Notes under the pieces: generated by a model
What the model saw: only the letters and a program-made list of their open reading frames with translations
Told to the model about the DNA's origin: nothing
Database searches by the model: none
Assembly: GCF_003590945.1 (NCBI RefSeq)
Contig: NZ_QYUK01000016.1
Coordinates: forward strand, 372,001 to 436,000
DNA from: Oleomonas cavernae
GTDB taxonomy: Bacteria > Pseudomonadota > Alphaproteobacteria > Zavarziniales > Zavarziniaceae
DNA: 64,000 nt
Direction of reading: 5' to 3'
Translations under genes and position numbers: made by a program
Shown: positions 32,964 through 46,976 of the stretch, in pieces
How the letters are laid out: every line of letters begins with the position of its first letter
Numbering within the stretch: position 1 is the stretch's first letter

Positions 32964-33439
32964 GCGCGCCGGTACAGGAAATAGCGCCCCTCGGGCACGC
33001 CGGCCGGCAGGGTCAGCGGGCGCAGGTCGGGAAGCTCCAGCGGACTGCCGCTGGCGGCAATGCCGCCCGGCGCCAGCAGGTCCCGGATCAGCGCCGGCAG
33101 CCAGCCGGCCAGCCGGCGGTCGCCTTCCACGGTGCCGGTGGCGATATCGGCATGAACCAGCGCGGCGCCGATGCCGGCGAAGGCCCGGGCGGTTTCATCG
33201 ATCTCGCCCAGGACCAGATCGCCTGGCGGCGGGATCGACGCGGAATGGGCGGCGAGCGCCCGGTCGAAGGCGATGATGCGCCGATCGGGAAAGGTCTCGC
33301 GCAGGTGGTGATAGGTGCGGCCGTTGCCCAGGCCCAGTTCCAGGATCGGCCCGGGCAGGCCGTCGATCAACGAGGCGGCGGCGGCGATGACATCGCGCTG
33401 CGCCATCATGCGCCGGATGAAGCTGTCGAGTCGGCTCAT
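32960..33439 (-). CDS. Class I SAM-dependent methyltransferase-like protein
   Basis: A 159-aa small Rossmann-fold protein with the SAM motif GPILELGLGNGRTYHHL, motif II DRRIIAFDRAL and ALVHADIATG. It ends with a Tyr/Arg-rich YFLYRRA. The ATG at 33437-33439 is preceded by AAGGA, which decides the start against longer frames to 33511 that overlap the divergent phosphatase promoter. Short for a methyltransferase; it lacks an obvious substrate domain. Divergent from the histidine phosphatase gene with a 52-bp gap. Confidence 0.8.
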   Translation of the reverse strand: MSRLDSFIRRMMAQRDVIAAAASLIDGLPGPILELGLGNGRTYHHLRETFPDRRIIAFDRALAAHSASIPPPGDLVLGEIDETARAFAGIGAALVHADIATGTVEGDRRLAGWLPALIRDLLAPGGIAASGSPLELPDLRPLTLPAGVPEGRYFLYRRA

Positions 33440-33491
33440 CGGAAAGTCCTTGAGGTTACGGCGCCGGGCGCGGCCTGCTAGCTTGGCCGTC

Positions 33492-34082
33492 ATGGCACCC
33501 TTTCCCGACATCTACCTTGTGCGCCATGGCGAGACCCAGTGGAACCTGGAAAAGCGCTTCCAGGGCATGCGCGACTCGCCCTTGACCGCTACCGGGCGCG
33601 CCCAGGCGAGCACTGTGGCCCGGATCCTGGCCAGGGAATTGGGGGACGGCCATCGCACGGCCCTCCAGACCAGCCCGCTGCCCCGGGCGGTCGAGACGGC
33701 GGCGATCATTCACGGCACCCTGGCCGGGCTGCCCCCTGCCCCCGTGCCGGCCCTGCGCGAGCTTCACCTGGGCCTATGGGAAGGCCTGCGCCGGGCCGAG
33801 ATCAAGGCCGGCTGGCCGGCCCTGCTGGCCGGGGTGCCCAAAGCCGAGTGGTATTTCGCCGCCCCCGGCGGCGAGGGCTATGACGCCGCCCTGGCCCGGG
33901 TCGAGGCCTGGCTGCACGGCCTCACCGGCCCGGTCGTCGCCGTCTCTCACAGCGTCACCGGCCGCCTGATCCGCGGCCTGTACGCGGGGCTGCCGCGGCC
34001 CGCGACGCTGGCCCTGCCGGCACCCCAGGACAGTGTCTGGCACCTCGGACGTCATGGCATGGTGGAGTTGGGCGAGGCTTGA
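33492..34082 (+). CDS. Histidine phosphatase family protein
   Basis: Phosphoglycerate-mutase-like phosphatase of 196 aa. The catalytic motif LVRHGETQWN at about 8-17 carries the phospho-accepting His. The fold continues with TGRAQASTVARIL, LQTSPLPRAVETA, LRELHLGLWEGL (catalytic Glu) and VVAVSHSVTGRLIRGL (second His). The start ATG 33492-33494 gives the usual short N-terminus. The last codons of the gene lie in a 52-bp segment duplicated at 36176. Substrate unknown (phosphosugars, nucleotides or cobalamin intermediates in relatives). Confidence 0.93.
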   Translation: MAPFPDIYLVRHGETQWNLEKRFQGMRDSPLTATGRAQASTVARILARELGDGHRTALQTSPLPRAVETAAIIHGTLAGLPPAPVPALRELHLGLWEGLRRAEIKAGWPALLAGVPKAEWYFAAPGGEGYDAALARVEAWLHGLTGPVVAVSHSVTGRLIRGLYAGLPRPATLALPAPQDSVWHLGRHGMVELGEA

Positions 34083-34124
34083 GAGACGTTTCGAAGGGTT
34101 CGTTTCGGTCTACGGTTAGGTGAC
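34073..34124 (+). repeat. Direct repeat, left copy (phosphatase 3' end)
   Basis: About 52 bp, including the phosphatase stop codon, recur at 36176-36227 in the same orientation. The central stretch beginning gagagacgtttcgaaggg is identical over more than 30 bp, and the outer parts differ at a few sites. The two copies bracket about 2.05 kb of atypical DNA. No integrase gene lies between them. Confidence 0.85.
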
Positions 34125-34143
34125 CCGGTCGAGCAGATTGCGT

Positions 34144-34214
34144 GGTTCGACAGGCTCACCATGAGGAAAGTCCTTTTGCCACAGAGATTCTCATCCTGAG
34201 CCTGTCGAAGAACC
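34144..34214. repeat. Intergenic inverted repeat
   Basis: Arms ggttcgacaggctcaccatg (34144 on) and cctgagcctgtcgaagaacc (ending 34214) are inverted copies separated by about 24 bp of A/T-richer sequence. This palindromic unit type is common between genes of Alphaproteobacteria. It is the only structure in the 204-bp gap besides the direct repeat. Confidence 0.75.
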
Positions 34215-34286
34215 CCTAAATCGTGGCCTTTCCCCGCTTTTTCGGTCCCCGCTTTTTCGCGATGTCGGACCAGACGAACTCCAATA

Positions 34287-35366
34287 CTACGGACTCGGAT
34301 CGAGTGAGAGATCCACATCAAAGGCTTTCGGCGGCTGGGGCTGGAAGCTTTCCGCCAGGGCTAATGCTTTAGCGCGGTCCTGACTGTCGAGCGGTTCAAC
34401 GGCCTCTTGCATAGCGATCGCAGCAAGGTGTTTTGCGCGTCCGCTGATGGCCCTAGCTTGGGCAATATAGGCCCACCCAGCCGCCGCAATTGGATCGCGA
34501 AGTGACCCGTTGTCCGTGGCCAAGAGGTGAGCCAGCTTTTGCATGCCATCAATGAGTCCCGCGCGAGCGCTAATCTGAAGCCACTTATAGGCAGCGGTAT
34601 TGTCTTGCCTGAGGGAGACCACCCTGGCTGATGGTGAACCGGCTTCCAAAGGCCCGCCGGCCTGATAGGCGCTGCCTAAGATATAGGCTATCCCCGCTCG
34701 ATGCTGCGCTGCCAGAACAGGTAAATCGACAGGGCGCATGCCGGCGTCGTTTTTCCTCGCTTCGGCTTCTATTGAGTCTGCAAGAATGTTCAATTCGATA
34801 AATTTTTCGTCATTCTTTTTGATATAGGTACCATCCAAATAAAATGTAGCTATATGCCGCAGCGGAGTCATGTGTCGAAGGAACCCGCTTGACCATTCGT
34901 GCGCCTTATTAAACCAAAAATAGGATCTAGGTAAACTTTCCTTCTGAGCTATAGCCTCCCAATAAACTTTTCCTAGCAAAGCCGCTGCATCAGCAGACCC
35001 TCTGCAAGCTGATCTATGCACTAGCTGCAAACCCTGCTGCTTATCAGAGGCATTTTGATGAAGATAATATAACCTAAATCCCAATTCATACATAGCTATT
35101 ACATCCCCGGATGCCTGTCGTTCATCAAGTATACCTTCTACTTTGCCCCAATCTTTTCCATTCCTCCTCCAGAGGTCGGTTGTGTACAGAACAGGACTTA
35201 TAGAGATATGAAACGAACCTGGCGCTAAGTCTAGGGACGAGCAACCGTATCGCTCGCACCCTTTGCATGCTGTCCGCTGGCTTGCGATAGCATGTGAAAA
35301 AATTACGAACGCAAGCAAAAAAAATATGGTCGCGGTGAGTGCGACGAAAGGGAGAGGTCGGCGCAT
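34287..35366 (-). CDS. Membrane-anchored protein with Sel1-like/TPR helical repeats
   Basis: A 359-aa protein from the ATG 35364-35366. It has an N-terminal TM/signal anchor (FVALTATIFFLLAFVIFSHA) and then Cys-rich ACKGCERYGCSS. Helical repeats of Sel1 type follow (for example QLVHRSACRGSADAAALLGK, AAYKWLQISARAGLIDGMQK, and a C-terminal IAAAGWAYIAQARAISGRA). Base composition is clearly more AT-rich than the neighbours, with codons such as ATA and AAA, so the gene is probably acquired. An upstream GTG at 35402 falls inside an orphan IS end and is unlikely to be the start. Specific function unknown. Confidence 0.7.
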   Translation of the reverse strand: MRRPLPFVALTATIFFLLAFVIFSHAIASQRTACKGCERYGCSSLDLAPGSFHISISPVLYTTDLWRRNGKDWGKVEGILDERQASGDVIAMYELGFRLYYLHQNASDKQQGLQLVHRSACRGSADAAALLGKVYWEAIAQKESLPRSYFWFNKAHEWSSGFLRHMTPLRHIATFYLDGTYIKKNDEKFIELNILADSIEAEARKNDAGMRPVDLPVLAAQHRAGIAYILGSAYQAGGPLEAGSPSARVVSLRQDNTAAYKWLQISARAGLIDGMQKLAHLLATDNGSLRDPIAAAGWAYIAQARAISGRAKHLAAIAMQEAVEPLDSQDRAKALALAESFQPQPPKAFDVDLSLDPSP

Positions 35367-35392
35367 TCTAACAACTTTCAATTCAGCGTTCC

Positions 35393-35438
35393 TGGACTGC
35401 ACCCCTTCGGTGAGTCAGTCAAATTGGAGTTAAATTGG
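35393..35438 (+). repeat. Orphan IS3-type terminal repeat
   Basis: Starts TGGACTGCACCCC, as does the left end of the complete IS at 37180, and matches its first 32 bp with one mismatch. It then continues with a stretch like the inner part of that element's right end (AGTTAAATTGGGGA). No transposase is attached. It lies 27 bp upstream of the Sel1-like gene start and may contribute to its expression. Confidence 0.75.
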
Positions 35439-35552
35439 GGAAAGACCACGTTTTTTCGCCGCCAATCTCCTCTTGATCAGGGGCGCCAGGCGCACAGCGA
35501 TAAATCGTGGTCTGTCGCTATTCCCCACTCTCGTAACAGCGCGTGGGCTATG

Positions 35553-36068
35553 TTATGTCGCGAAATGGCTCACGGCATCGCCCGCCATGCGGGCGATGCA
35601 CCATCGGCCATAGAGCGCCGCCAGCGGCAGGGCGAGCCAACCTAACGGGCCGGGCGGCAGGTCATAGTTGATCCAGACCGTGAGCCGACAGCCTTGGCCG
35701 GACGGGACAATGTCGAAGCCCATGGCGTAGCCGCCGATGATGAGGAGGCGCACCGGCCCCGCAGTTTGCCAGGCCTTGCGCGAAGGCGGCACGCGCTCGG
35801 TCACCACCTCGTCGACGGACAGCGAGACGCCGAAGGCCGAGCCGCCCATGCGGATATGCGATCCGACCGCTTGGCCGCGCCCGGCGTCGAACGCGTAGGT
35901 CATCTGACCGCCCCCCATCATCGCGGATGGCTTCTGCATGTGCTCGGCGAGCCGGGTCTGGTCGTCCAGGTGCGCGAAGACCGCGTCCGGAGGCGCGGTG
36001 ACGGCAACGGTGCGTGCAAGATGGTGGCGGAGTCTCCTGGCGGGCGAGGGCATGGGCGTCTCCGGCAA
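35553..36068 (-). CDS. SRPBCC (START/polyketide-cyclase-like) family protein
   Basis: A 171-aa protein with the hot-pocket helix-grip fold expected from VAVTAPPDAVFAHLDDQTRL at the N-terminus (the common SRPBCC opening), central beta strands with GSHIRMGGSAFG and a hydrophobic end with LPLAALYGRWC. Such proteins bind hydrophobic ligands; the ligand is unknown. The start at 36068 is uncertain, since another frame opens at 36090 with an unrelated sequence. It lies between the two copies of the 52-bp repeat, in DNA of normal high GC, unlike the Sel1-like gene. Confidence 0.7.
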   Translation of the reverse strand: MPETPMPSPARRLRHHLARTVAVTAPPDAVFAHLDDQTRLAEHMQKPSAMMGGGQMTYAFDAGRGQAVGSHIRMGGSAFGVSLSVDEVVTERVPPSRKAWQTAGPVRLLIIGGYAMGFDIVPSGQGCRLTVWINYDLPPGPLGWLALPLAALYGRWCIARMAGDAVSHFAT

Positions 36069-36175
36069 TTGTCACCGCAGGCTCACTCATGGCGCCCTTT
36101 CGAGCCTTGACCTAAATCACGCGGCGACCCTCGCCGCCGGTGCGGCCATCGACGGGAATTAGGGGCCAGGCTGAC

Positions 36176-36227
36176 CGAGGCCTGAGAGACGTTTCGAAGG
36201 GTTCGTTTCGGTCTGCCGGTAGGTGAC
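36176..36227 (+). repeat. Direct repeat, right copy
   Basis: Second copy of the segment at 34073-34124, same orientation, here without an attached phosphatase gene. It ends in an AT-rich stretch (about 36228-36265) upstream of the GST gene. Nothing else was seen between 36069 and 36334 apart from this copy. Confidence 0.85.
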
Positions 36228-36334
36228 TCTGATAAAATATTCAACTATGATACTATTATCATATAAGCGTGGAGGCGATCTCTCGAACCTCGCTTCGCGA
36301 CCTCGTTCCTGACGACCGGAGGGCCCCACTTCGA

Positions 36335-37174
36335 ATGCCTATCGTCACGCCCACCAACACCGAGGTTCTCTCGCTGCGGGGTTTGCACCTCTACCACTAC
36401 GCACTGTCGAACTGCTCCCAGAAGGCACGCATGACTCTGGAAGAGAAGGGACAGCGGTGGACGAGCCACCACCTGGACTTGTCGCGGAACGAACACGTCA
36501 CACCGGAATACATTGGCATCAATCCGAACGGTGTCGTGCCCACGCTGGTGCATGACGGCAAGGTGGTCGTCGAGTCGAGCGACATCATTGACTACCTCGA
36601 CGTGACCTTCCCCACGCCGCCCCTGAAGCCCTCCGATCCGGCCGAACTCGCTCGCATGGAATCGTGGATCGAGTTGTGGGATGCCATCCAGGCCGCCCTC
36701 AAGACGCTGTCGCACGAGTTCCTTTTCAAGGTCCGGAAGGGCAACGCCCGCCGAGAGCTCGCACGTTACGAGCGCATTCATAAGAACGAACACTTGATTG
36801 GCTTTCTGCGCGAGTTCACCTCGCCGGCAGGCCTCTCGCCGCAACGGATTTGCGGCGCTCATGCCGAGGCGACCGCCGCGCTCGCACGCCTCAACCGCCG
36901 ATTGAGCGAACGCGAGTGGCTGGCCGGCGACGCCTTTTCCCTGGCCGATCTCGCCTGGTCCGTGAACCTGCATCGCTTCAACCTGATGAGATTCCCGATG
37001 CACGATTTGCACGGTCTGCGGCGCTGGTTCGCGGCCGTCGCGGGCCGCCCCAGTTTTCAACGGGCTGTCGTCGGCTTCGAACCGACGTCGATCCGCATCT
37101 TCTTCCGCCTGTACGCGCTTACCCGCGAACTCGCCGGCAGCGGCCCACGCTCGCAGCGCTGGCAAGGGCGCTAA
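36335..37174 (+). CDS. Glutathione S-transferase family protein
   Basis: A 279-aa GST-like protein. The N-terminal thioredoxin fold has LYHYALSNCSQKARMTLEEK, where the Ser/Cys of SNCS is the likely thiol site. NPNGVVPTLVHDG carries the cis-Pro, and VVESSDIIDYLD the glutathione-binding Glu-Ser. The C-terminal helical domain includes WLAGDAFSLADLAWSVNLHR. It is longer than a typical GST because of a helical insertion around 120-160. The start ATG 36335 follows GGAGG; an in-frame ATG at 36269 is an alternative. The stop is 5 bp before the IS3 element, so the insertion may have altered its C-terminus. Confidence 0.85.
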   Translation: MPIVTPTNTEVLSLRGLHLYHYALSNCSQKARMTLEEKGQRWTSHHLDLSRNEHVTPEYIGINPNGVVPTLVHDGKVVVESSDIIDYLDVTFPTPPLKPSDPAELARMESWIELWDAIQAALKTLSHEFLFKVRKGNARRELARYERIHKNEHLIGFLREFTSPAGLSPQRICGAHAEATAALARLNRRLSEREWLAGDAFSLADLAWSVNLHRFNLMRFPMHDLHGLRRWFAAVAGRPSFQRAVVGFEPTSIRIFFRLYALTRELAGSGPRSQRWQGR

Positions 37175-37210
37175 ACCCCTGGACTGCACCCCCTCGGTGA
37201 GTCAGTCAAA

Positions 37211-38200
37211 TCAGGGACAGTTGGTTGTGACCAAGCCCTCAGGCTGCTGCGCAGCAGCCTGAGGGCTTGACCGGGTTTCGAACTCCACCGGCGAGGTATA
37301 GGCCAGCGCCGAGTGGAGCCGTTGCCGATTGTAGACCGCTTCGATGAATTCGCCGATAGCGGCCGTGGCGTGCCCGAGGTCACGGTAGTCGCCGCCGTCG
37401 ACCTCTTCCTGCTTCAGCGTCTTCATGAAACTCTCGGCCATGGCATTGTCGTAAGGGCAGCCGGCCCGGCTCATGCTGGGCTGGATGCCGTGGGCTTGCA
37501 GGCGCTCGATGTAATCACCGCAGGCATATTGGACGCCCCGGTCGGAATGGTGCACCAGCCCGCCGGGAAGCACCTCTCGGCCGTCGAGCGCCATCTGCAA
37601 GGCTGCCAGGGCCAGTTCGGCCCGCAGGTGGTCGGCCATCGCCCAGCCCACGACCTTGCGGCTGAAGGCATCGAGCACCACCGCCAGGTAGACGAAGGCC
37701 TCGGCCAGCCGGACATAGGTGATGTCGGCCACCCAAAGCTGGTTGACCGCCAGCGGGACCAGCCGGCGCGCCAGGTTCGGCCAGAGCCGCCAGTCGTGTC
37801 GGGAGTCCGTCGTCGCCGGCTTGAACGCTGCCTTGCGCAGGCACAGCAGATTGTCCTCGCGCATCAGGCGCACCACGCGCTTGTGGTTGACCGCCCAGCC
37901 CTCACGTCGGAGCAGGGCCGTGAGCCGCCGGTAGCCGTAGTGACGGTGGGTCAGCGCCAGGTGCTGAAGCACGTCGCGCAGCGCCGTTTCTTCACGGCCG
38001 GGACAGTTCTCGGCCCAGCCCCGGTAGTAGGCGCCACGGCTGACATCGGCCAGGGCACACATCCGCTCGACCGTGGCCGTCACCCCGGCCCCTCGCCTTG
38101 CCGGCGCGTCATCGCTTGGATATAGGCGAAGACGCCGTCGCGCCAGGCGCGTCGCTCGCCTGCCGTGACGCCTCGAGATGCCGCAAGGCGTGCTTGAAAA
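37211..38200 (-). CDS. IS3-family transposase OrfB (integrase core), apparent frameshift
   Basis: DDE catalytic subunit. The recognisable part includes MCALADVSRGAYYRGW, HRHYGYRRLTALLRREGW, the first catalytic Asp in LWVADITYVRL, the second in LVHHSDRGVQYA and the Glu in NAMAESFMKTLKQEE, followed by YNRQRLHSALAYTSP. Its 5' part (DGVFAYIQAMTRRQ, about 38100-38150) is in the -1 frame relative to orfA, as expected for IS3, but one G seems to be missing in the C/G runs at 38083-38092, putting the rest out of frame. With that base restored, orfA, the slippery site and orfB form the usual arrangement. Confidence 0.88.
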   Translation of the reverse strand, partial: FSSTPCGISRRHGRRATRLARRRLRLYPSDDAPARRGAGVTATVERMCALADVSRGAYYRGWAENCPGREETALRDVLQHLALTHRHYGYRRLTALLRREGWAVNHKRVVRLMREDNLLCLRKAAFKPATTDSRHDWRLWPNLARRLVPLAVNQLWVADITYVRLAEAFVYLAVVLDAFSRKVVGWAMADHLRAELALAALQMALDGREVLPGGLVHHSDRGVQYACGDYIERLQAHGIQPSMSRAGCPYDNAMAESFMKTLKQEEVDGGDYRDLGHATAAIGEFIEAVYNRQRLHSALAYTSPVEFETRSSPQAAAQQPEGLVTTNCP

Positions 38201-38519
38201 AATCCAGGTCCAGCTGCTGCTGGCCGACCTTGCGCTCGAGCGCGGCGATCTGCCGGCGCGCCTGCTCCAGGTCGCTGGCGCTCGACGCCGGCCCCCGCGC
38301 CGCCGCCAGGATCCGCGCCTCCGCCTGCTTCGGCCGTCCCGGTCCCGGGCGCAGCGCCAGTTCACCGCCCGCGCGGAAATGATCCCGCCAGCGGTACAGC
38401 AGTCCTCGCTTGATCGACAACTCCCGGGCCAGTGCCGAACCGCTCTCGCCCGCCGCCAATCGTTCAACCACCGCCAGCTTGAAGGCCCGGCTGAACCGCC
38501 GCCTCGTCTCTCGGGTCAT
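38109..38519 (-). CDS. IS3-family transposase OrfA (helix-turn-helix)
   Basis: A 136-aa DNA-binding subunit. An N-terminal HTH of transposase-8 type is visible: RRRFSRAFKLAVVERLAAGE and ALARELSIKRGLLYRWRDHF. A leucine-zipper-like coiled coil follows (LEQARRQIAALERKVGQQQ), typical for OrfA multimerisation. The frameshift window lies in the codons for DLDFFKH. It ends at 38109 within the orfB coding region. Confidence 0.9.
   Translation of the reverse strand: MTRETRRRFSRAFKLAVVERLAAGESGSALARELSIKRGLLYRWRDHFRAGGELALRPGPGRPKQAEARILAAARGPASSASDLEQARRQIAALERKVGQQQLDLDFFKHALRHLEASRQASDAPGATASSPISKR
38196..38202 (-). other. Programmed -1 frameshift slippery site in IS3 element
   Basis: On the minus strand the sequence ATTTTTTC codes for Asp-Phe-Phe in orfA. 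A run of six T followed by C allows -1 slippage into the orfB frame, as in other IS3 elements, to make the OrfAB transposase. I inferred this from position and frame only. Confidence 0.6.
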
Positions 38520-38643
38520 GCGTTCTCCTCAGCGAGAACTGTCCCCAATTTAACTGACTCAATCTAGGGGTTCACTCCAAACCCAGCCAAATCCGGGACA
38601 ATCACGATCTGTCCCCGATTTCGGTTTTCAGATGAAGTGAAAA

Positions 38644-38746
38644 CTCGTCATCCCGGCCGAAGAGCCGGGATCTCGCGACGTTTGAGCGCCGGGAACACTG
38701 GTCAAAAGATCCCGGCTCTGCGCTCCGCTCCGGCCGGGATGACGAT
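38644..38746. repeat. Intergenic palindromic repeat (family C)
   Basis: Between the IS3 right end and the cyclase gene. Arms cgtcatcccggccgaagagc and ctccggccgggatgacga are inverted and match the element at 13274-13366. Internal gatcccggctctgc also recurs. No gene lies in 38580-38757. Confidence 0.8.
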
Positions 38747-38757
38747 GTTTGGCGACG

Positions 38758-40428
38758 CTAAACTGCCGCCGCGTCCTCCAGGCGGTGGATGCCGATCGCC
38801 TCGTCCATGTCGCGCATGTGCACGACCTTGGCCTCGTGACGCGGGAGGCTGATGCCTGAGGCCTTGACCGTCGCCGCCGAGATCAGGCAGTCGGCGAGCA
38901 GTTCCTTGGTCGCGGCCTCCAGCCGGCTGGCGATGCTGACGGTATCGCCCATGGCGGTGACCAGCAGCCCGCGCGCCACGTCGCCGACCTCGGCGATCAC
39001 CGCCTGGCCGGTGTGGATGCCGATGCCGATGCGCAAGGGAAAGGGCAGCGCCGCGCCGAAGCGCTGGTTCATCCCGGTTGCGACCGCCAGCATCGCCCGG
39101 GCGGCGGCGATGGCATGGGCGGCCCCGGCGCCCGAGCGGTCCGAGAGGCCGAACACCGCCATCAGCCGGTCGGTCATGAAACTGTCGACCCGACCGCCGT
39201 GGGCCTCGGCCGCCTGGCTCATTTCCCGCAGGAAGGCGTTGATCAGCAGGGTGATGTCATAGGGCAGCAGCCGGCGGGTCAGGCCGTTGAAGGCGCGGAT
39301 GTCGACGAACAGCACCGTCACCTCGCGCTGGGCGCCCCAGCGATAGGCCTCGTCCAGGCTTTCCTGCTTGGCATTGCGCGGCGGGATCGGCAGCAGGATC
39401 TGGGTCGCGATGTCCTGCACCGGCCGCAACTGGCAGGCCAGGCGGACATTACCCGGCGCCGCGAGCTGGGTCAGCATGGCGCGTTCGACCGCCTCGGGCG
39501 GAGGCAGATGCTCGGCCCCGTCGGTCACGGCGATGCGGCAGGTCGAGCAGCGGCCGCGGCCGCCGCAGATGGCGGGGTGAGGGATGCCCTTGATGCGGCT
39601 GGCCTCCAGCACGGTGGTGCCCCGGGTGACGCGGACGTCACCGTGGCCGACATAGCGGATGGTGATGCGGCCCGAGCGCCGGCGCGCGATTTCGCGGCCG
39701 AACATGGTCAGGACAACCAACCCAACGATCGCGGCGAAAACCAGCCTCCCGTCGAAAACGATGCCATCGAGCGCCGCCTCGGTCGACGGGTTGGCGACGG
39801 TTGGCGCTATGCGGGCGAGGGCCTCGCGCGCCGAAGCGACGAAGCCGGCGATGGCAAGGGCCGGCACCAGCGCGGCAAAGGCGATCCAGGCCGCGCGCCA
39901 GCGGGGATAGAAAGCCCGGGTGCGCAGGACATGGGAGACGCCGATGCAGCCGTGGGTCCAGGTACACAGCAGCAGGATGATCTGGGCGATCGCATTGCCG
40001 CTCCAGATCTGCGGCAGCACCGCCGCGTAGGAGATGTCGCTGCCATAACCGACGGCGGCGAAGCGCGTGTTGACCGCGTGGCCGATCAGCAGGTAGGGCA
40101 CCGCCAGGCCCAGGACGATCTGCACCGCCTCGTCGAGCGGCATCAGGATGATGCGGCGGCGGGCCAGGCGCTTGAGCACCAGGGCCAGGTGGCAGGCAAA
40201 GGCGGCATAGAGCAGCACCGTCCCCGGCGGCGATTGCCAGACCGCGACCCGCCAGCCCTGCACCAGGGTCATCCACTGCAGGCCGGCGATGCCGATCGCG
40301 TGGTTGATCAGGTGGGTGGTGACGAAGGCAAACAGCACGAGGCCCGACCACAGCCGCAATTCCCGCTCCCAGGGCAGGGAGCGCTTGGGCTTTGCCACCG
40401 AATCCGGGGGCGCGTCGAGGTCAGACAT
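38758..40428 (-). CDS. Membrane class III nucleotidyl cyclase with haem-type TM domain and 2Fe-2S ferredoxin domain
   Basis: A 556-aa fusion. Residues about 25-245 hold six TM helices with spaced His (THLINHAIG, AFACHLALVL, LLIGHAVNTR, CTWTHGCIG), like the succinate-dehydrogenase/CyaC-type dihaem anchor known as a redox sensor in Sinorhizobium CyaC. Residues about 260-350 are a plant-type ferredoxin domain with Cys in AICGGRGRCSTCRI and VRLACQL. Residues about 370-550 are a class III cyclase domain (VTVLFVDIRAFNGLTR, RVDSFMTDRLMAVFG, TAMGDTVSIASRLEAATK). Both metal Asp are present. The purine-selecting Lys (usual VDKF/VIKF) is Ser, and the transition-state Asn (usual VNxASR) is Ser, so activity or substrate may be unusual. 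It lies 24 bp after a cyclic-nucleotide-binding gene. Confidence 0.88.
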   Translation of the reverse strand: MSDLDAPPDSVAKPKRSLPWERELRLWSGLVLFAFVTTHLINHAIGIAGLQWMTLVQGWRVAVWQSPPGTVLLYAAFACHLALVLKRLARRRIILMPLDEAVQIVLGLAVPYLLIGHAVNTRFAAVGYGSDISYAAVLPQIWSGNAIAQIILLLCTWTHGCIGVSHVLRTRAFYPRWRAAWIAFAALVPALAIAGFVASAREALARIAPTVANPSTEAALDGIVFDGRLVFAAIVGLVVLTMFGREIARRRSGRITIRYVGHGDVRVTRGTTVLEASRIKGIPHPAICGGRGRCSTCRIAVTDGAEHLPPPEAVERAMLTQLAAPGNVRLACQLRPVQDIATQILLPIPPRNAKQESLDEAYRWGAQREVTVLFVDIRAFNGLTRRLLPYDITLLINAFLREMSQAAEAHGGRVDSFMTDRLMAVFGLSDRSGAGAAHAIAAARAMLAVATGMNQRFGAALPFPLRIGIGIHTGQAVIAEVGDVARGLLVTAMGDTVSIASRLEAATKELLADCLISAATVKASGISLPRHEAKVVHMRDMDEAIGIHRLEDAAAV

Positions 40429-40452
40429 GGCGAGGCGGCGGGTGAAAGAGGT

Positions 40453-40881
40453 TCAACTGTTCGCCACCGTCCGCTGGAGCCGGTGCGCCAGTTCGCGCGC
40501 GACGGCCAGGGAAAATCGGGCATTGTCCTGCATCAGGCGGAAGAAGCTCTCCCGGCTGAGGCGCAGCAGCACCAGGTCGGTCAGCGCCAGCACCGAAACC
40601 GTCCGCGGGCTGTCGCACAGGATGCCGACCTCGCCCACCACGGCGCCGGCCCCCTCGCGCCCCAGCGAACGGTTGCCCTTCTCGTTCTCGATCAGAAACT
40701 CGACCTCGCCCGACAGCACCACGAAGACCGCGTCCGACGGATCGCCGCCGTGACAGAGAAACTCCCCCTGCTCGATGAAGACCTCCTCGCTCAGGCAGGC
40801 CATCAGCCGCATCGAGCCGGGCTCGGCGCCCTGAAAGATCGGGATTTGCTGCAAGGCCAAGATTTCGGATTCGAGCGCCAT
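40453..40881 (-). CDS. Cyclic-nucleotide-binding domain protein (Crp-type sensor without HTH)
   Basis: A 142-aa stand-alone cNMP-binding beta-roll. The phosphate-binding cassette reads GAVVGEVGILCDSPRTVSVLA, with the Gly-Glu pair and the Arg that contacts the cyclic phosphate. Earlier strands include FLCHGGDPSDAVFVVLSGEV. No DNA-binding, kinase or TM domain is attached, so it should act by protein contact. It sits between the ATPase-degenerate ABC gene and the cyclase gene with short gaps (68 and 24 bp), suggesting that it senses the nucleotide made by the cyclase and regulates a neighbouring membrane protein. That coupling is inference. Confidence 0.9.
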   Translation of the reverse strand: MALESEILALQQIPIFQGAEPGSMRLMACLSEEVFIEQGEFLCHGGDPSDAVFVVLSGEVEFLIENEKGNRSLGREGAGAVVGEVGILCDSPRTVSVLALTDLVLLRLSRESFFRLMQDNARFSLAVARELAHRLQRTVANS

Positions 40882-40949
40882 GGAATCCTCCGCCCCTCGC
40901 GGTCGTCATCACCTTGAATACAGGCTGTCGGCCCGCCCTGTCACTAGAC

Positions 40950-43556
40950 TCAGCCGGCGGCAGCGGCCGATTTGTGCTCGGCCGCGGCCCCGTTGGACAC
41001 CAGGCGGGCGTCCTTGAACTGGAACACGCTGTCGAAACCCTCGGCCATCTTGGCTTCGCTGGTGGTCACCACCAGGGTCTTGCCCGCCATGGCCTGGCGC
41101 ACGCCCGCCAGCAGCGCCTGCGCCTCGGCCGGGGCGAGATTGCCGATGGTGCCGTCCAGCACCAGGATATCGGGCCGCACGACGAGCGCCCGGGCGACGC
41201 CGAACTTGATCCGCGGCAAGGGTTGCAGCAGGCGGCCGCCCTTGCCGACCTCGACGTCCAGCCCCAGGCCGAAGACCGCGTCGTCCAGGCCGATCTCGCT
41301 GATCACGCCGGCGATGATCGGCGAAATCTTCTTCTGCGCGCCCATGACACCGCTGGCGACCCGGCCGAACAGCAAGTTGTCGATGACCGGCGCCTCGCGC
41401 ATGAAGGCATCGTAGTCGTAGAATTCGATGTCGTCGTTGTAGTCCTGCGGCAGGTGCTGTTTGAAGCTGGCCCGGGCGCGCAGCAGCCTGGTAGCGAATT
41501 CCGGGGTGATCAGGCCTAAGCGGTGGCGCGGCTCGACATAGTCGAAGGCCAGCGCGATCAGTTGGGTGCGGATCGCCGCGGAAACCCCCTGGCCGGGGCT
41601 GGCCTGGCCCAGGGCATCGATCACCGCGCGCAGATCGTCGAGCTGCGACGGCGCGATGAAGGAATAGCGTTCGAACACCGGGTGATCCGGCGGCAGGCCG
41701 CCGAAGGTCTCCAACGCCATTTCTGCGATCTGGCGGCCGAAGGAGATCAGCGGCTGGAGCAGCCCCTCGGCTTCCAGGATGGTCAGGGTATAGCTGTCCC
41801 TGGCCAGGCCGCCGGCGGACAGCTTTGGCCCGACGGGAATGCCGAACAGCAGGTTCTCGCTGATCGTCGCATGGGCGCCGTAGCGGTCGGCGTCGAAGCG
41901 TTCGACCACCTTGCCCAGGTTGGCGGCGATGATCCGTTCCTGCACCAGCCGGCGCGCGGCGACGAAACAGTCGGCGACGTCCGGCATCATCGCCGGCTTC
42001 AGCCGCTGATTGAGGCCCAGGCGGCGGACCTCCTCCAGGGCACCGACAGCCTTCACCGCCTCGCCCAGGCACTGGTTCACCTGGTCCGGCCCTTGGATGC
42101 CCAGGGCGCCGTAGTCCAGGTCGCCTGCTGGATCGCCCGACCGGCGGGCGGCAAACAGGAGGTTGTCGCGCAAGGTCCCGGGCTGAAGGTCGGGGCCTGC
42201 GCCGCAATAGATCAGATGCCGCGTGAACACCGGTTCGGAGAAATGGGCGAGATCGACATCGCCCACCAGGATCCGGCCCTCGTAGGCGGTGATCTGGCGC
42301 CCTAGCAGCTTACCCACGATGTCGCGGGCGCTGCCCGGGTTGCCCAGCAGGGCGGCATGGCCGGGCCGCGGCAAGGTCAGCGACAGCCGGTCGAGCTGGG
42401 CGCCGCTGCGGCCATCGCCGACGGTGACGGCCTGGAATTCGATCGGCGCCTCAGGCCCGGGAAAGGCCGGCGAGACGCCGCTGTCGAAGGGCGGCAGCAA
42501 CGACGACGGCGAGAACTGGCTGATCACCTGCTCGTATTTGATGGCGACATCCTGGCGCTGCTGATCCCAGTCGATCAGCTCCTTGATGGGCGGCGGCAGG
42601 TCGCGATAGGCGGCGATCACCGCCACCAGCTGGCCGATGTCCATCTCGCCGCGCAGGGCGAAATAGCCGCCGGCCGCGTAGAAGATGAAGGGCGTGACCT
42701 GGGAGAGCAGGTTGTTCAGGAACTTGACCGCGAACTTGCGCTTGAACAGCCGGGTGCGGATGCCGAACAAGGTGCCCAGCCGCTGGTCGATATCGGCATC
42801 GACATAGGCCGAGGCGCCGTAGGTGTGCACCGTCGGCGCGGATTCGACCACCTCGCCGATGCGCCCGGCCAGGCGCCGGGATTCGATCTGGCGCAGGCGC
42901 CCCAGGCGCAGCTGCTCGCGCCGCAGGATGGGAATCGCCACGGCCTGGACGGCGACGATGAGGAAGGTCGCCAGGCCCATCCAGACGCTTTGGAAGAAGA
43001 TGAAGATCAGTGCCGTCGCCGCCTGGGTGCCCAGGAACACCGGCTGGATGAAGGCATCGCCCACGAAGCCGCCGATCGGGTCGACCTCGTCCTTGATCAT
43101 GCTCGCGACCTCGGCCGGCTTCACCGCCGCGATATCCTCGGGCCGGAAGCGCAGCAGCAGGATGAACAGGTCGTGGCGCATGCGGCGCAGCATGGCCTCG
43201 CCCAGCACCCCCTTCTTGACATTGATGTAGTACTTGAAGGCACCGTTGATCAGGACCAGGACCAGGAACCAGCAACTGAGCACGATCAGGTAGGGCAGGC
43301 GCTCGAGAATCAAGCCGTCGCTGACGCTGAAGCTGCCGCCGCCCAGCAGGGCGGGCAGCTCGACATGCCAGTCGAACAGGACCGCGGTGACCTGACCGTC
43401 GGCGAAGGCATTTCCCTGGATCGCATTGTTGACGATCAGCTTGGGCACCTCGAGCGACACCCAGTAGAAGGGCAGCGACACGAGGATGACGGCCAGAAGC
43501 AGGATCTGCTGCGCTTTGCTGTGGTGCCACGCGTATCGAAACAGGCTTGGGTCCAA
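40950..43556 (-). CDS. ABC-exporter-like membrane protein with degenerate, enlarged nucleotide-binding domain
   Basis: An 868-aa protein. Residues 1 to about 330 form an ABC exporter TMD (VEVPKLIVNNAI-like opening, several TM helices, ESAPTVHTYGAS in the coupling region). The C-terminal part (about 370-868) aligns to an ABC ATPase domain but is twice as long. The Walker A position reads LLGNPGSARDIVGKL, lacking GxGKS/T. There is no LSGGQ (LPRIKFGVARAL instead). Walker B is ILVLDGT, with the catalytic Glu replaced by Gly, and the switch His position reads VVTTSE. ENLLFG-like motifs occur three times (about 464, 590, 735), suggesting internal duplication. ATP hydrolysis looks unlikely. It is in a run with a cNMP-binding protein and a cyclase. 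Confidence 0.85.
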   Translation of the reverse strand: MDPSLFRYAWHHSKAQQILLLAVILVSLPFYWVSLEVPKLIVNNAIQGNAFADGQVTAVLFDWHVELPALLGGGSFSVSDGLILERLPYLIVLSCWFLVLVLINGAFKYYINVKKGVLGEAMLRRMRHDLFILLLRFRPEDIAAVKPAEVASMIKDEVDPIGGFVGDAFIQPVFLGTQAATALIFIFFQSVWMGLATFLIVAVQAVAIPILRREQLRLGRLRQIESRRLAGRIGEVVESAPTVHTYGASAYVDADIDQRLGTLFGIRTRLFKRKFAVKFLNNLLSQVTPFIFYAAGGYFALRGEMDIGQLVAVIAAYRDLPPPIKELIDWDQQRQDVAIKYEQVISQFSPSSLLPPFDSGVSPAFPGPEAPIEFQAVTVGDGRSGAQLDRLSLTLPRPGHAALLGNPGSARDIVGKLLGRQITAYEGRILVGDVDLAHFSEPVFTRHLIYCGAGPDLQPGTLRDNLLFAARRSGDPAGDLDYGALGIQGPDQVNQCLGEAVKAVGALEEVRRLGLNQRLKPAMMPDVADCFVAARRLVQERIIAANLGKVVERFDADRYGAHATISENLLFGIPVGPKLSAGGLARDSYTLTILEAEGLLQPLISFGRQIAEMALETFGGLPPDHPVFERYSFIAPSQLDDLRAVIDALGQASPGQGVSAAIRTQLIALAFDYVEPRHRLGLITPEFATRLLRARASFKQHLPQDYNDDIEFYDYDAFMREAPVIDNLLFGRVASGVMGAQKKISPIIAGVISEIGLDDAVFGLGLDVEVGKGGRLLQPLPRIKFGVARALVVRPDILVLDGTIGNLAPAEAQALLAGVRQAMAGKTLVVTTSEAKMAEGFDSVFQFKDARLVSNGAAAEHKSAAAAG

Positions 43557-43644
43557 ATCGACTCTCCGGGGCGGCTGGGCCTGCGCCGCGCCGGCATGGT
43601 CGCCCGCCTCGCGCAGGGATACAACCGCGACGCGGTCAACCCAC

Positions 43645-44505
43645 CTATGGGGCCGGCCGGGCCATGACGAGGTAGCCGTAGCCCCAGTCGACCGGCACCA
43701 GGCCGCAAGCCAGGTCGTCCAGCCGGCCGAGCAGCGCCGAATGGGTGACCGCCGATTCCGGCAGCATGCTCTCGACCGTCAGGCGCTCGACCGTGAAGCC
43801 GGCCTCGCCCAGGTCGCGGCGGATCTCGTCGCGCCGGTACAGATGGTAATAGAGGGCGATGGCGCTGCCGCCGGTCTGGCGCTCGTAGCAGATGTCGCCC
43901 GGCTCCAGTTCGCCCCGGGCGATCAGGGGCGCGCAGGCGGCCTGCACGGCGCGAAACCGCCGGGCGGCGTTGGGCAGGCCCAGGACCAGCCGCCCGCCGG
44001 GCGCCAGGCTGGCGCGCAAGGCCGACAGCAGGGCGATCCGCGCGGCATGGCCGGCGATGTGGCCCAGCACGCCGAACCCCAGCAGGACAACGTTGAAGCC
44101 GCCCAGCGCCCCAACCTGCCGCCGGTAGGTCGCGTCGCCCGGATCGCAGACATGGACCCTGTCGGCCAGGCCCAGGCCCCGGGCGGCACCGGCCAGATGA
44201 TCGCGGGCCACGGCGCTGATATCGGCGGCCACCACTTCCGCCCCGCGATCCCGCGCCAAGGCAAAGCAGTAGCGCCCCTCGCCGGCGCCGTAGTCAAGCA
44301 ATCGCCCACCCGTCGGCAGGGTCTGGCGCAGCAGGCGCAGGGTGCGGCGATTGGGCATCGGGTAGCGGGACAGGTAGAGGCCCGAGGCAAAATAGGCGTC
44401 GTAGCTGCGGCCCATGTCGGGCAGCACGGGTGTCGCGCAAACACCCGCCGCCTCGGGGGGCGGCGCCACACCGGCAGGGGATCGACCGCTCGAAGAGATG
44501 GACAT
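43645..44505 (-). CDS. Class I SAM-dependent methyltransferase
   Basis: A 286-aa protein. After a Pro/Ala-rich N-terminus (about 1-30) comes YFASGLYLSRYPMPNRRT. The SAM motif reads LLDYGAGEGRYCFALARD (about 69-86), then VVAADISAVARDH, LLGFGVLGHIAGH and LAPGGRLVLGLPNA. The C-terminal YHLYRRDEIRRDLGEAGF is typical of small-molecule or lipid methyltransferases. It starts 10 bp after the stop of the NCS2 gene upstream, so it is likely in the same transcript. Substrate unknown. Confidence 0.88.
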   Translation of the reverse strand: MSISSSGRSPAGVAPPPEAAGVCATPVLPDMGRSYDAYFASGLYLSRYPMPNRRTLRLLRQTLPTGGRLLDYGAGEGRYCFALARDRGAEVVAADISAVARDHLAGAARGLGLADRVHVCDPGDATYRRQVGALGGFNVVLLGFGVLGHIAGHAARIALLSALRASLAPGGRLVLGLPNAARRFRAVQAACAPLIARGELEPGDICYERQTGGSAIALYYHLYRRDEIRRDLGEAGFTVERLTVESMLPESAVTHSALLGRLDDLACGLVPVDWGYGYLVMARPAP

Positions 44506-44515
44506 GGCGGCCCCC

Positions 44516-46228
44516 TCAATCCTTGAAGGTCAGGCGCAACTCGGCCTGGCGGCCCACCGTCCGGGTACGCACCGAATCGGCCAGGCGATTGATCAGGTAG
44601 CCGGCGAGGCGCTGGGGCGCCTGGTCGTCGTCGACCATTTCCTCGTGGCTGGGCGGGCGGCTGGCCAGCACCGGCAAGGTGCCGCGGTAGCGGATGATGA
44701 TCGCCAGGTTGTACTCGTCGAGCTGGGTTTCCAGCTCGATGGCCTCGCCGTCGGCGGCAATGAGGTCGCTTTCCTTCAGGAGCTCGAAGGCCTGCCAGGA
44801 AGCGAGTTCCGCCTTCTTCACCGCCTCGTGGCGGGCGCCCCAGATCCGCCCCTGCTGCTCGATGAAGGCGATCATGTCCTCGAAATGGGTTTGGGCGACC
44901 GGGAAGCTGTGCCGCGTCTTGCGGCGAATGCCCAGGCGGAACAAGGCCTGCAGCATCACGGCGACGGTCAGCGCCAGGGCGAATTGCGAGAAGGCGACGT
45001 AGTGGGCGCTGGGCAGCAGGCGGTTCAACTGCTCGTGAATATCGCCATAGGTGAGGCCGACCAGCAGGGCGACGCCGATGGCCAAGGTGCGGCGGTTGTC
45101 CAGCATGCGCGAGCCGATCATCTGGATCCCGCCGATGGTGGCGAAGGACGACAGGAACAGGAACAGGGCGCCCAGCACCTCGGGCGGCACGATCATCCAA
45201 GCGACGATGATCTTGGGGCAAAGGGCGAAGACGAACAGCAAGCCGGCCGTCCACACCGCCAAGTGCCGGCTGGTGCAACCGGACGCCAGCGCCAGGCTGG
45301 CAGCACCCCCGCTGGCAACCATGGGCATGGCATTGATCAGCGAGGCGAAGATCTGGGCGATGCCCTCGGCCCGCACGCCCCGGCCGACCGCGGCCAGGTC
45401 CGGCCGCTTGAAATCGGCGTCGTTGAAGCGCTGGGCCACGGTCTGCACCCCCATCGAGGTCAGCGACAGGGAAAAGCCGGTGATGATCGCCGGCACCAGG
45501 GCCTCCATCTCGAAGCGCCAGCCGAATTGCTGGAGCATCGGCACATGGAACAGCGCGGCACCGTCGAAGGCGGCGAGATCGGCCGGGGTCAGCAGCCCGG
45601 CGGCGATGCTGAGTCCCAGGCCGACACCAAGGCCGGTCACCGTGGCGAACAGCCGAAGCCGGCTCTTCACCCAGACATTGCAGACGATCATGACGGCAAG
45701 CGTCGCCGCGGCCACGCCGACCCTGTCGGGCGACGGCGCCGCAGCACCCGCTGACGAGAAGATCAGGTTGAGGCCGATGACGCCGAAGCCGGCCCCGATC
45801 AGCAGCATGGCCAGGCCCGCGACTTCGACCGTGAAGATGGCCTTCAGGCGCTGGATGACGAAGCTGAACACGATCATCGACAGGCCCGAGACCGCGAACA
45901 TGCCAAAGCCGCCGTCGAGGCCCGAGGTGGCGAGGCCGATCCCCAGGACGGGCAGCACCGAGGCGGTGCCCTGGACCGGCAGGAAGATGCCGGCGCCGAT
46001 GCCGAAGCGGCCCCAGGCCTGCAGCAGCAGGGCGACCGCCGAATAGATCAGGCAGGCCGCCGCCAGGTTCAGGAACGCCGCATGATCCATGCCGGCATTG
46101 CGTGCGAAGACCACCGGCACCGCCAGCAGGGCGCCCAGGAAGGCGACCTGCTGCAAGGCCAGCCCGAAGGCGAAGCGGGCCGGCGGAATATCCTCGAGCC
46201 AGTAGAGGAGCGTGTCGGGTCTGCGCAT
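44516..46228 (-). CDS. NCS2-family (uracil/xanthine) permease with GHKL-like C-terminal domain
   Basis: A 570-aa protein. Residues about 15-435 form 12-14 TM helices of NCS2/SulP-like fold (GAGIFLPVQGTASVLPVLG, SLTSMGVQTVAQRFNDADF). Residues about 440-570 are cytosolic. They resemble an RsbW-type GHKL ATPase domain in order, with HFEDMIAFIEQQGRIWGARH, EYNLAIIIRYRG and QRLAGYLINRLADSVRTRT before a last beta strand, but the ATP-binding Asn and DxG residues are not preserved. Normal NCS2 permeases end soon after the last TM. A paralogue with the same layout lies at 46973-48727. It may be a sensor rather than, or besides, a transporter. Confidence 0.85.
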   Translation of the reverse strand: MRRPDTLLYWLEDIPPARFAFGLALQQVAFLGALLAVPVVFARNAGMDHAAFLNLAAACLIYSAVALLLQAWGRFGIGAGIFLPVQGTASVLPVLGIGLATSGLDGGFGMFAVSGLSMIVFSFVIQRLKAIFTVEVAGLAMLLIGAGFGVIGLNLIFSSAGAAAPSPDRVGVAAATLAVMIVCNVWVKSRLRLFATVTGLGVGLGLSIAAGLLTPADLAAFDGAALFHVPMLQQFGWRFEMEALVPAIITGFSLSLTSMGVQTVAQRFNDADFKRPDLAAVGRGVRAEGIAQIFASLINAMPMVASGGAASLALASGCTSRHLAVWTAGLLFVFALCPKIIVAWMIVPPEVLGALFLFLSSFATIGGIQMIGSRMLDNRRTLAIGVALLVGLTYGDIHEQLNRLLPSAHYVAFSQFALALTVAVMLQALFRLGIRRKTRHSFPVAQTHFEDMIAFIEQQGRIWGARHEAVKKAELASWQAFELLKESDLIAADGEAIELETQLDEYNLAIIIRYRGTLPVLASRPPSHEEMVDDDQAPQRLAGYLINRLADSVRTRTVGRQAELRLTFKD

Positions 46229-46265
46229 CGGGTACTCGTTACAAAGGGGCTGTCAGATAACGCTG

Positions 46266-46976
46266 TCAGATAACGGGGAACAGGGTGGTTTCGCCCGGCG
46301 GGGTCTGCCACAGGTCGCCGGTATCGAGATCGAACCACCAGCCGTGCAGTTGCAGGGTGCCGGCCTCGACCCGCGCCTTCAGCCAGGGATAGGTCAGCAG
46401 GTTGGCGAGCGAGCCGGCGATCGCCGCCCGTTCGACCAGGAACGGATTTTCCTTGAGCTGGGCCAGGGCGATCTCCCGGCGCCCGCCCTCGCCGTTGTCG
46501 ACGTGGAGCTTGCAGGCATCCAGGGCGATTTCGACCCAGTCGCTGATGAAGTCGCGCGGCAGGCGCTGGCCGCCGGCGCTGCCGATCAGGGCCTTGATGC
46601 CGCCGCAGTGGGCGTGGCCCATGATCACGATGTGATCGACCTTGAGGTCGCGCACGGCATATTCGATCGCGGCACCCGTGCCGTGCAGGGAAGGGCCGGG
46701 CTGATAGGGCGGCACCAGGTTGGCGACGTTGCGCACGGTGAACAATTCGCCGGGGTCCGCGCCCGACAGGATGGCCGGATCGACCCGGCTGTCCGAGCAG
46801 GAGATCATCAAGGTCGCCGGGGCCTGGCCGTCCTCGACCAGGGACCGCATCAGGTGGTGATTGTCGCCGTAATGCCGGGCCTTGAAGGCGCGGATGCCCT
46901 CGGTCAGATGGCTGATGTCGCGGCAGGTGCAGCCGGCGGGTCGATCGACGCTCAAGATATGTCCCCCATGGCTCAA
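46266..46976 (-). CDS. can: Beta-class carbonic anhydrase
   Basis: Interconverts CO2 and bicarbonate. The 236-aa product has the zinc-binding and catalytic residues of beta enzymes: MISCSDSRVDP (Cys, Asp-Arg dyad) and MGHAHCGGIKAL (His, Cys). FTVRNVANLVPPY and AAIEYAVRDLKVDHIV complete the fold. It has an extra N-terminal part with GCTCRD. Its start overlaps the stop of the upstream NCS2 gene by 4 bp. A 13-bp tandem duplication (46249-46274) covers its stop codon. SulP/NCS2-carbonic anhydrase pairs usually point to bicarbonate transport or CO2 sensing. Confidence 0.94.
   Translation of the reverse strand: MSHGGHILSVDRPAGCTCRDISHLTEGIRAFKARHYGDNHHLMRSLVEDGQAPATLMISCSDSRVDPAILSGADPGELFTVRNVANLVPPYQPGPSLHGTGAAIEYAVRDLKVDHIVIMGHAHCGGIKALIGSAGGQRLPRDFISDWVEIALDACKLHVDNGEGGRREIALAQLKENPFLVERAAIAGSLANLLTYPWLKARVEAGTLQLHGWWFDLDTGDLWQTPPGETTLFPVI

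Follow-up and report, generated by a model that had tools for sequence, protein, structure and literature searches.

A clade of operon-linked CyaC-type redox proteins with a conserved sensor and an altered, probably demoted, cyclase domain

CyaC-type redox cyclases are believed to signal the respiratory quinone state via cAMP. What could such a protein report if the residues that build the messenger are missing? This question is raised by a gene in the window, by which we mean the whole stretch of 64,000 nucleotides analysed here (Oleomonas cavernae, contig NZ_QYUK01000016.1, positions 372,001 to 436,000). The gene is the last of a tight minus-strand operon, in which the gene of an ABC-type protein is followed after 68 bp by that of a cNMP-binding protein and, after 24 bp, by the cyclase gene. 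The three products and the domains of the last one are as follows.

40950..43556, minus strand: ABC-type protein, 868 aa, with degenerate nucleotide-binding motifs (PF00664, E 1.7e-12; motif tables)
40453..40881, minus strand: stand-alone cNMP-binding protein, 142 aa, P0002 (PF00027, E 6e-21)
38758..40428, minus strand: CyaC-type redox protein, 556 aa, P0001 (open reading frame list; E 5.6e-195 to the Z. marina ortholog)
39664..40371, minus strand: membrane anchor, residues about 20-255, with His39, 43, 80, 117 and 159 kept (alignment; helices in the structure model)
39421..39630, minus strand: Fer2 [2Fe-2S] domain, residues 267-336, with Cys288, 294, 297 and 332 (Pfam PF00111, E 8e-10)
38902..39327, minus strand: class III cyclase domain (Guanylate_cyc), residues 368-509 (Pfam PF00211, E 4.6e-12)

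An Rfam scan of positions 33000-47000 of the window gave zero matches. IS3-type transposase reading frames, taken from the open reading frame list, lie at 37211-38519 on the minus strand, 0.24 kb downstream of the cyclase gene.

The N-terminal 250 residues of the cyclase protein form membrane-type helices in a structure model of the monomer, whose mean pLDDT of 63 led us to use it for the fold and the order of elements only. The top Foldseek match of this model was 1wc3 (E 1.8e-10), and a class III cyclase fold with its two metal Asp was recovered by Pfam, structure alignment and Foldseek. We compared 16 linked copies, i.e., those in an operon with the ABC/cNMP-binding pair, with 114 unlinked ones. 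His39, His80, His117 and His159 were invariant in all 16 linked and all 114 unlinked rows of the alignment, as were the four Cys of the Fer2 domain (130/130). In an earlier note on this DNA, the transmembrane haem domain and the ferredoxin domain had been described as looking intact. The anchor His resemble those of CyaC-type haem-b anchors; by analogy with CyaC (PMC10463352), the anchor would bind haem, and the same analogy suggests which His would serve as ligands.

The active site is different. We took the roles of its aligned positions to be those known from class III cyclases, which PMC4215837 states in part.

39301..39303, minus strand: metal Asp376, kept (Asp in 16/16 linked and 114/114 unlinked copies)
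39181..39183, minus strand: Ser416 at the base-contacting Lys position (Lys in 0/16 linked, 95/114 unlinked)
39169..39171, minus strand: metal Asp420, kept, within T-D-R (Asp in 16/16 linked, 114/114 unlinked)
38956..38958, minus strand: Thr491 at the second base-contact position (Thr in 5/16 linked, 105/114 unlinked)
38935..38937, minus strand: Ser498 at the transition-state Asn position (Asn in 0/16 linked, 110/114 unlinked)
38923..38925, minus strand: transition-state Arg502, kept in the window copy (Arg in 8/16 linked, 114/114 unlinked)

Unlike CyaC-type cyclases, the window cyclase lacks both the base-contacting Lys and the transition-state Asn, and the turn Thr419-Asp420-Arg421 replaces Gly-Asp-Gly. 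All of these substitutions, together with the retention of both metal Asp, had been proposed in the earlier note, with the reservation that its motif alignment might be off by register. The register was right: against the solved CyaB (3r5g) and cyanobacterial CyaC (1wc0), Ser416 aligned with the K of DKFVGD and Ser498 with the N of VNLASRLE / VNIAARLQ, the metal Asp fell at Asp376 and Asp420, and alignment to the CyaC relatives gave the same residue assignments. Asp495, within G-D-T-V, was tried as the base-specifying Asp and rejected, the solved cyclases placing this position at Thr491. Since Thr occupies it in 105 of the 114 unlinked copies, the pair in use in the CyaC family is Lys/Thr and not Lys/Asp. 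The ortholog from Z. marina, with an identity of 56% over the whole protein, 63% in the cyclase domain and 48% in the membrane part, carries the same Ser/Ser pair at the Lys and Asn positions. This pair, together with the absence of Lys and Asn from all 16 linked copies, argues against chance. The T-D-R turn was seen only in the window and Z. marina copies; it varies in the others.

The substitutions are not confined to this genome. At E <= 1e-60, the cyclase protein matched 108 of 385 genomes of the class. Among 116 loci with a cyclase match, the ABC protein adjoins in five (Z. marina, in two records, and three Labrys records); the other 111, some of which end at contig edges, have no ABC neighbour, and two of them (L085, L155) have a cNMP-binding match. 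Searches at E <= 1e-122, which find only copies close to that of the window and may miss more distant linked ones, extended this set. In the Labrys order (397 genomes), 10 genomes matched, seven of them new; the cNMP-binding gene adjoins the cyclase in all seven new loci and the ABC gene in six, L283 beginning inside the binding gene. One family of 109 genomes gave 13 matches, three already in the set and 10 new; in four of the new ones, the 1.5 kb flank contains the binding gene and a portion of the ABC gene, and in six it contains neither. In another family (18 genomes), the only match was the copy already in the set. Neighbourhoods were examined for most, not all, matched cyclase loci. Residue counts exclude the fragment L167, a duplicate record of the Z. 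marina locus (L172), two proteins without a cyclase domain (L173, L174) and a locus without a protein match (L062).

Across the linked copies, both metal Asp are present in 16 of 16, and the remaining catalytic positions have drifted. Seven kinds of residue occupy the Lys position (A7, S3, I2 and one each of Q, T, N and M) and five the Asn position (T6, A4, S3, M2, V); the Thr491 position reads T5, V3, M3, I3, L and A. The transition-state Arg is lost in 8/16 (R8, Q3, K2, G, A, S), and position 539 is Arg in only three of the 16. Unlinked copies have the two metal Asp and the Arg without exception (114 each), with Asn in 110 and His in four; they depart from Lys in 19/114 too (Lys in 95, Q10, A3, G3, N, E, S). 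Outside the clade, only four copies lack both Lys and Asn, and all four have His in place of the Asn. Two other CyaC-family branches (L163-L165, L168), with His in place of the Asn and either Ala or Gln for the Lys, have no ABC/cNMP-binding neighbours. Among the columns that are new to the clade are Asp513 (16/16 linked copies, most others having Gln or Glu) and Thr371 (15/16), which are possible contact sites.

In a tree computed without the motif columns (79 rows, every second canonical row being used), the 16 linked cyclases formed one clade (SH-aLRT 100). Its sister group comprised six unlinked copies (SH-aLRT 99), all with Lys/Thr/Asn/Arg and with no ABC or cNMP-binding reading frame in their 1.5 kb flanks. 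This tree, the second of those computed, omits L146, which has a long branch, and some near-duplicates. Linkage and Lys/Asn loss thus fall on the same single branch and have to be counted as one event, not as sixteen independent observations. The reading frame is open in all linked copies, and dN/dS of the cyclase domain was low in pairwise comparisons (0.035, 0.015 and 0.043 for three Labrys pairs, 0.048 for L282/L283 and 0.125 for L285/L286), similar to that of the membrane and Fer2 parts. The altered cyclase domains are thus kept by purifying selection even though their catalytic positions drift.

The two neighbours were analysed in the same way. The window ABC protein has GNPGSARD, LLQPLPR and LDGT where ATP-driven exporters have Walker A GK(S/T), the signature LSGGQ and Walker B D-E. 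In the linked ABC proteins, which group as a single clade (SH-aLRT 100), Arg stands in place of the Walker A Lys in 11/11 and the Walker A Ser/Thr is found in 0/11; unlinked ABC proteins have the Lys in 42/60 and the Ser/Thr in 4/60. The family as a whole (window 40950-43556, minus strand, and L205-L264), of about 900 aa, has lost Walker A, Walker B, signature and H-loop motifs of the ordinary kind, carries three (E/D)N(L/I)LFG-like motif copies per chain and nearly always adjoins, or is fused with, a small cNMP-binding protein: a cNMP-binding reading frame was present at 56 of the 60 unlinked loci examined and fused in the same frame at at least five. The same pair adjoins a soluble, Asn-retaining class III cyclase in three other lineages (L244, L260, L263), which accords with the pair responding to cyclases. 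At E <= 1e-60, the ABC family is present in 127/385 genomes of the class, including 96 of the 108 with CyaC and 31 of the 277 without it, mostly unlinked; these figures ignore kinship and genome size, and the control gene, present in just six of the 385 genomes, was too rare for the purpose.

The cNMP-binding protein of the window has an intact phosphate-binding cassette, GEVGILCDSPRTVSV, with the Glu and Arg (GEVGILCDSPRT) that characterise proteins with a cNMP-binding domain. Among the linked copies (12 rows from the motif table; L289, L290, L294 and L298 read from the sequences), the cassette Glu is kept in 12/16 and the Arg in 12/16, compared to 53/56 and 56/56 in unlinked copies; the phosphate Arg is thus lost in 4/16 and 0/56, respectively. 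In three of these four (L285, L286, L294), the cyclase Arg is absent as well, and in L298 it is kept. All six copies of the window subclade keep Arg502 and have an intact cassette in the partner.

Key parts of the active site are gone and the protein has nevertheless been kept intact by evolution, which suggests that the window protein probably relays its signal by another route or produces hardly any messenger. We see about an even chance that it is a redox sensor from a clade whose cyclase domain was released from efficient purine cyclase catalysis and now serves its neighbours as a signalling or scaffold element. This reading is based on the loss of Lys and Asn throughout the clade and of Arg502 in half of it while the two metal Asp and the positions that bind haem and FeS in CyaC-type proteins stayed invariant, on the maximal support of the clade and its canonical sister group, on the low dN/dS of the cyclase domain, on the loss of the phosphate Arg from linked binding proteins only, and on the Lys to Arg change in a single clade of linked ABC proteins. 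The window protein would be the redox-sensing member of a three-gene module, its cyclase domain being retained as a folded domain with both metal Asp, efficient purine catalysis having been given up. Electrons from the quinone pool would reach haem b and [2Fe-2S], whose redox state would rearrange the cyclase-domain dimer; the rearranged dimer would contact the cNMP-binding protein directly, and the latter would in turn act on the ABC-like membrane protein. The direct partners have a precedent in the redox-regulated CyaC of S. meliloti, which binds the regulators CycR and Clr (PMC10463352).

Some observations count against this reading. The window copy is among the less eroded, keeping the metal Asp, Thr491, Arg502 and its partner's cassette Glu and Arg, and the same holds for Arg502 and the partner cassette in the six copies of its subclade. 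Lys/Asn loss and linkage, being one event in the tree, cannot be counted as many independent observations. Ma1120 of Mycobacterium avium naturally has Ala in place of the Asn and is an active enzyme; absence of the Asn alone thus does not kill a class III enzyme (PMC4215837). We therefore grade the claim by copy. Selection on the clade as a whole seems not to keep efficient purine cyclase chemistry. Where a copy is eroded and the pocket of its receptor broken, signalling by contact is the simplest reading. The case is weaker for the window copy, which may instead be a cyclase that is slow or altered.

The latter alternative, a serious one to which we give somewhat less than an even chance, is that the window copy is a cyclase of weak activity or altered specificity, making little cAMP or another NMP (as its base pocket without Lys suggests) that is sensed locally by the cNMP-binding neighbour. 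It accords with the two metal Asp, Thr491 and Arg502 of the window copy, with the intact cassette of its partner and of all six subclade copies, and with the Asn-keeping soluble cyclases beside the same pair elsewhere. Ma1120 is again instructive, its K101E mutant losing 92% of adenylyl cyclase activity at pH 7.5 and retaining some (PMC4215837). More distant linked copies, however, have lost the Arg too, and the receptor phosphate Arg is gone in 4/16, so that the module seems not to need a cyclic nucleotide there. Besides, a new specificity would predict one residue at the Lys position, which is unfixed (A, S, I, Q, T, N, M). The earlier note had left two alternatives side by side, another product or poor activity, or a redox sensor acting by conformation on the adjacent cNMP-binding protein. 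The comparison favours the sensor acting by contact, since Lys/Asn loss is clade-wide and tied to the ABC/cNMP-binding linkage, Arg502 is lost in half of the clade and the partner phosphate Arg in a quarter of it, all under purifying selection; for the window copy, with its kept residues and partner pocket, the first alternative is still plausible.

It is also possible, though less likely than not, that the module, once a cAMP relay, has become a relay of pseudoenzymes. It would combine a redox pseudo-cyclase with a cNMP-binding protein, unable in some members of the clade to bind the cyclic nucleotide phosphate, and an ABC protein without an ordinary ATP site. If so, respiratory redox state would pass from protein to protein, and the clade would display the steps from enzyme to scaffold.

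Two other explanations are much less probable. Mammalian cyclases are C1/C2 heterodimers with the metal half in C1, and retention of the metal Asp in 16/16 while the other half erodes resembles a C1 role, the base and transition-state residues being supplied by another cyclase; further class III cyclase matches do exist in the window genome. We consider this unlikely, as the operon has no complementary partner and the window copy keeps Arg502, needless for a pure C1. That the cyclase part is a relic heading for loss, as its several eroded catalytic positions and the nearby transposase frames might suggest, is hardly credible given dN/dS values of 0.015-0.125, open frames in all linked copies and an identity between the window and Z. 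marina proteins that is higher in the cyclase domain (63%) than in the membrane part (48%).

Returning to the reading as a redox sensor with a demoted cyclase domain, its interest lies in a conserved clade in which the sensor is kept and the site that makes the messenger is dismantled. Its members line up as a natural series that starts with an enzyme and ends with what is probably none, and on this series the idea of contact signalling by cyclase domains can be put to the test. Co-occurrence, far above expectation although the genes are unlinked, further suggests the ABC/cNMP-binding pair as a partner of CyaC in other alphaproteobacteria, with the reservation on kinship and genome size that applies to those figures. 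Our search of the open-access literature, subscription papers being outside its scope, found no description of the cyclase clade or of the pair. The window genome also encodes another redox protein, which shares the membrane and Fer2 domains and has no cyclase domain (L173 5929-7041, minus strand); judging from its motifs, the adjoining gene (L173 3950-5932, minus strand) presumably encodes an MscS-type mechanosensitive channel. In two Labrys genomes, a redox protein of this cyclase-less kind is encoded about 9 kb away from the variant cyclase (L287 5896-7389 and L288 4875-6077, both minus strand).

Among known systems, Pycsar is similar in that a class III cyclase adjoins a cNMP-binding protein. 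By definition, the latter is fused in Pycsar to a TIR, membrane or other effector domain, whereas the P0002 protein is stand-alone (142 aa, PF00027 only, no TIR or other effector domain) and the window cyclase protein has a haem/FeS sensor. PADLOC PycC models did match it (E 8e-15), which we rejected as a general class III cyclase match.

Spirulina CyaC (1wc0) and P. aeruginosa CyaB (3r5g) share fold and register with the window cyclase; they are active-type catalytic domains with both Lys and Asn, which the window copy lacks. The Thr at their second base position matches that of unlinked alphaproteobacterial CyaC. Ma1120 is like the window copy in lacking the Asn, replaced by Ala, and keeping the Arg; unlike it, this active adenylyl cyclase has Lys101 and Asp157 (PMC4215837).

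The closest system is the redox-regulated class III adenylate cyclase CyaC of S. meliloti (SMc01818), which we compared by description. The domain order is the same, with a six-helix anchor carrying two haem b followed by [2Fe-2S] and cyclase domains (the last two as annotated here), and the conserved His and Cys positions are shared. The operon partners differ, an ABC-like and a cNMP-binding protein in the window vs. cycR/smc01817 in S. meliloti (PMC10463352), as does the catalytic set, the window copy being without the active-site Lys and Asn. Domain order and fold of the window protein are thus already known from CyaC, and what sets it apart is an altered cyclase domain that, judging from its residues, has probably been demoted.
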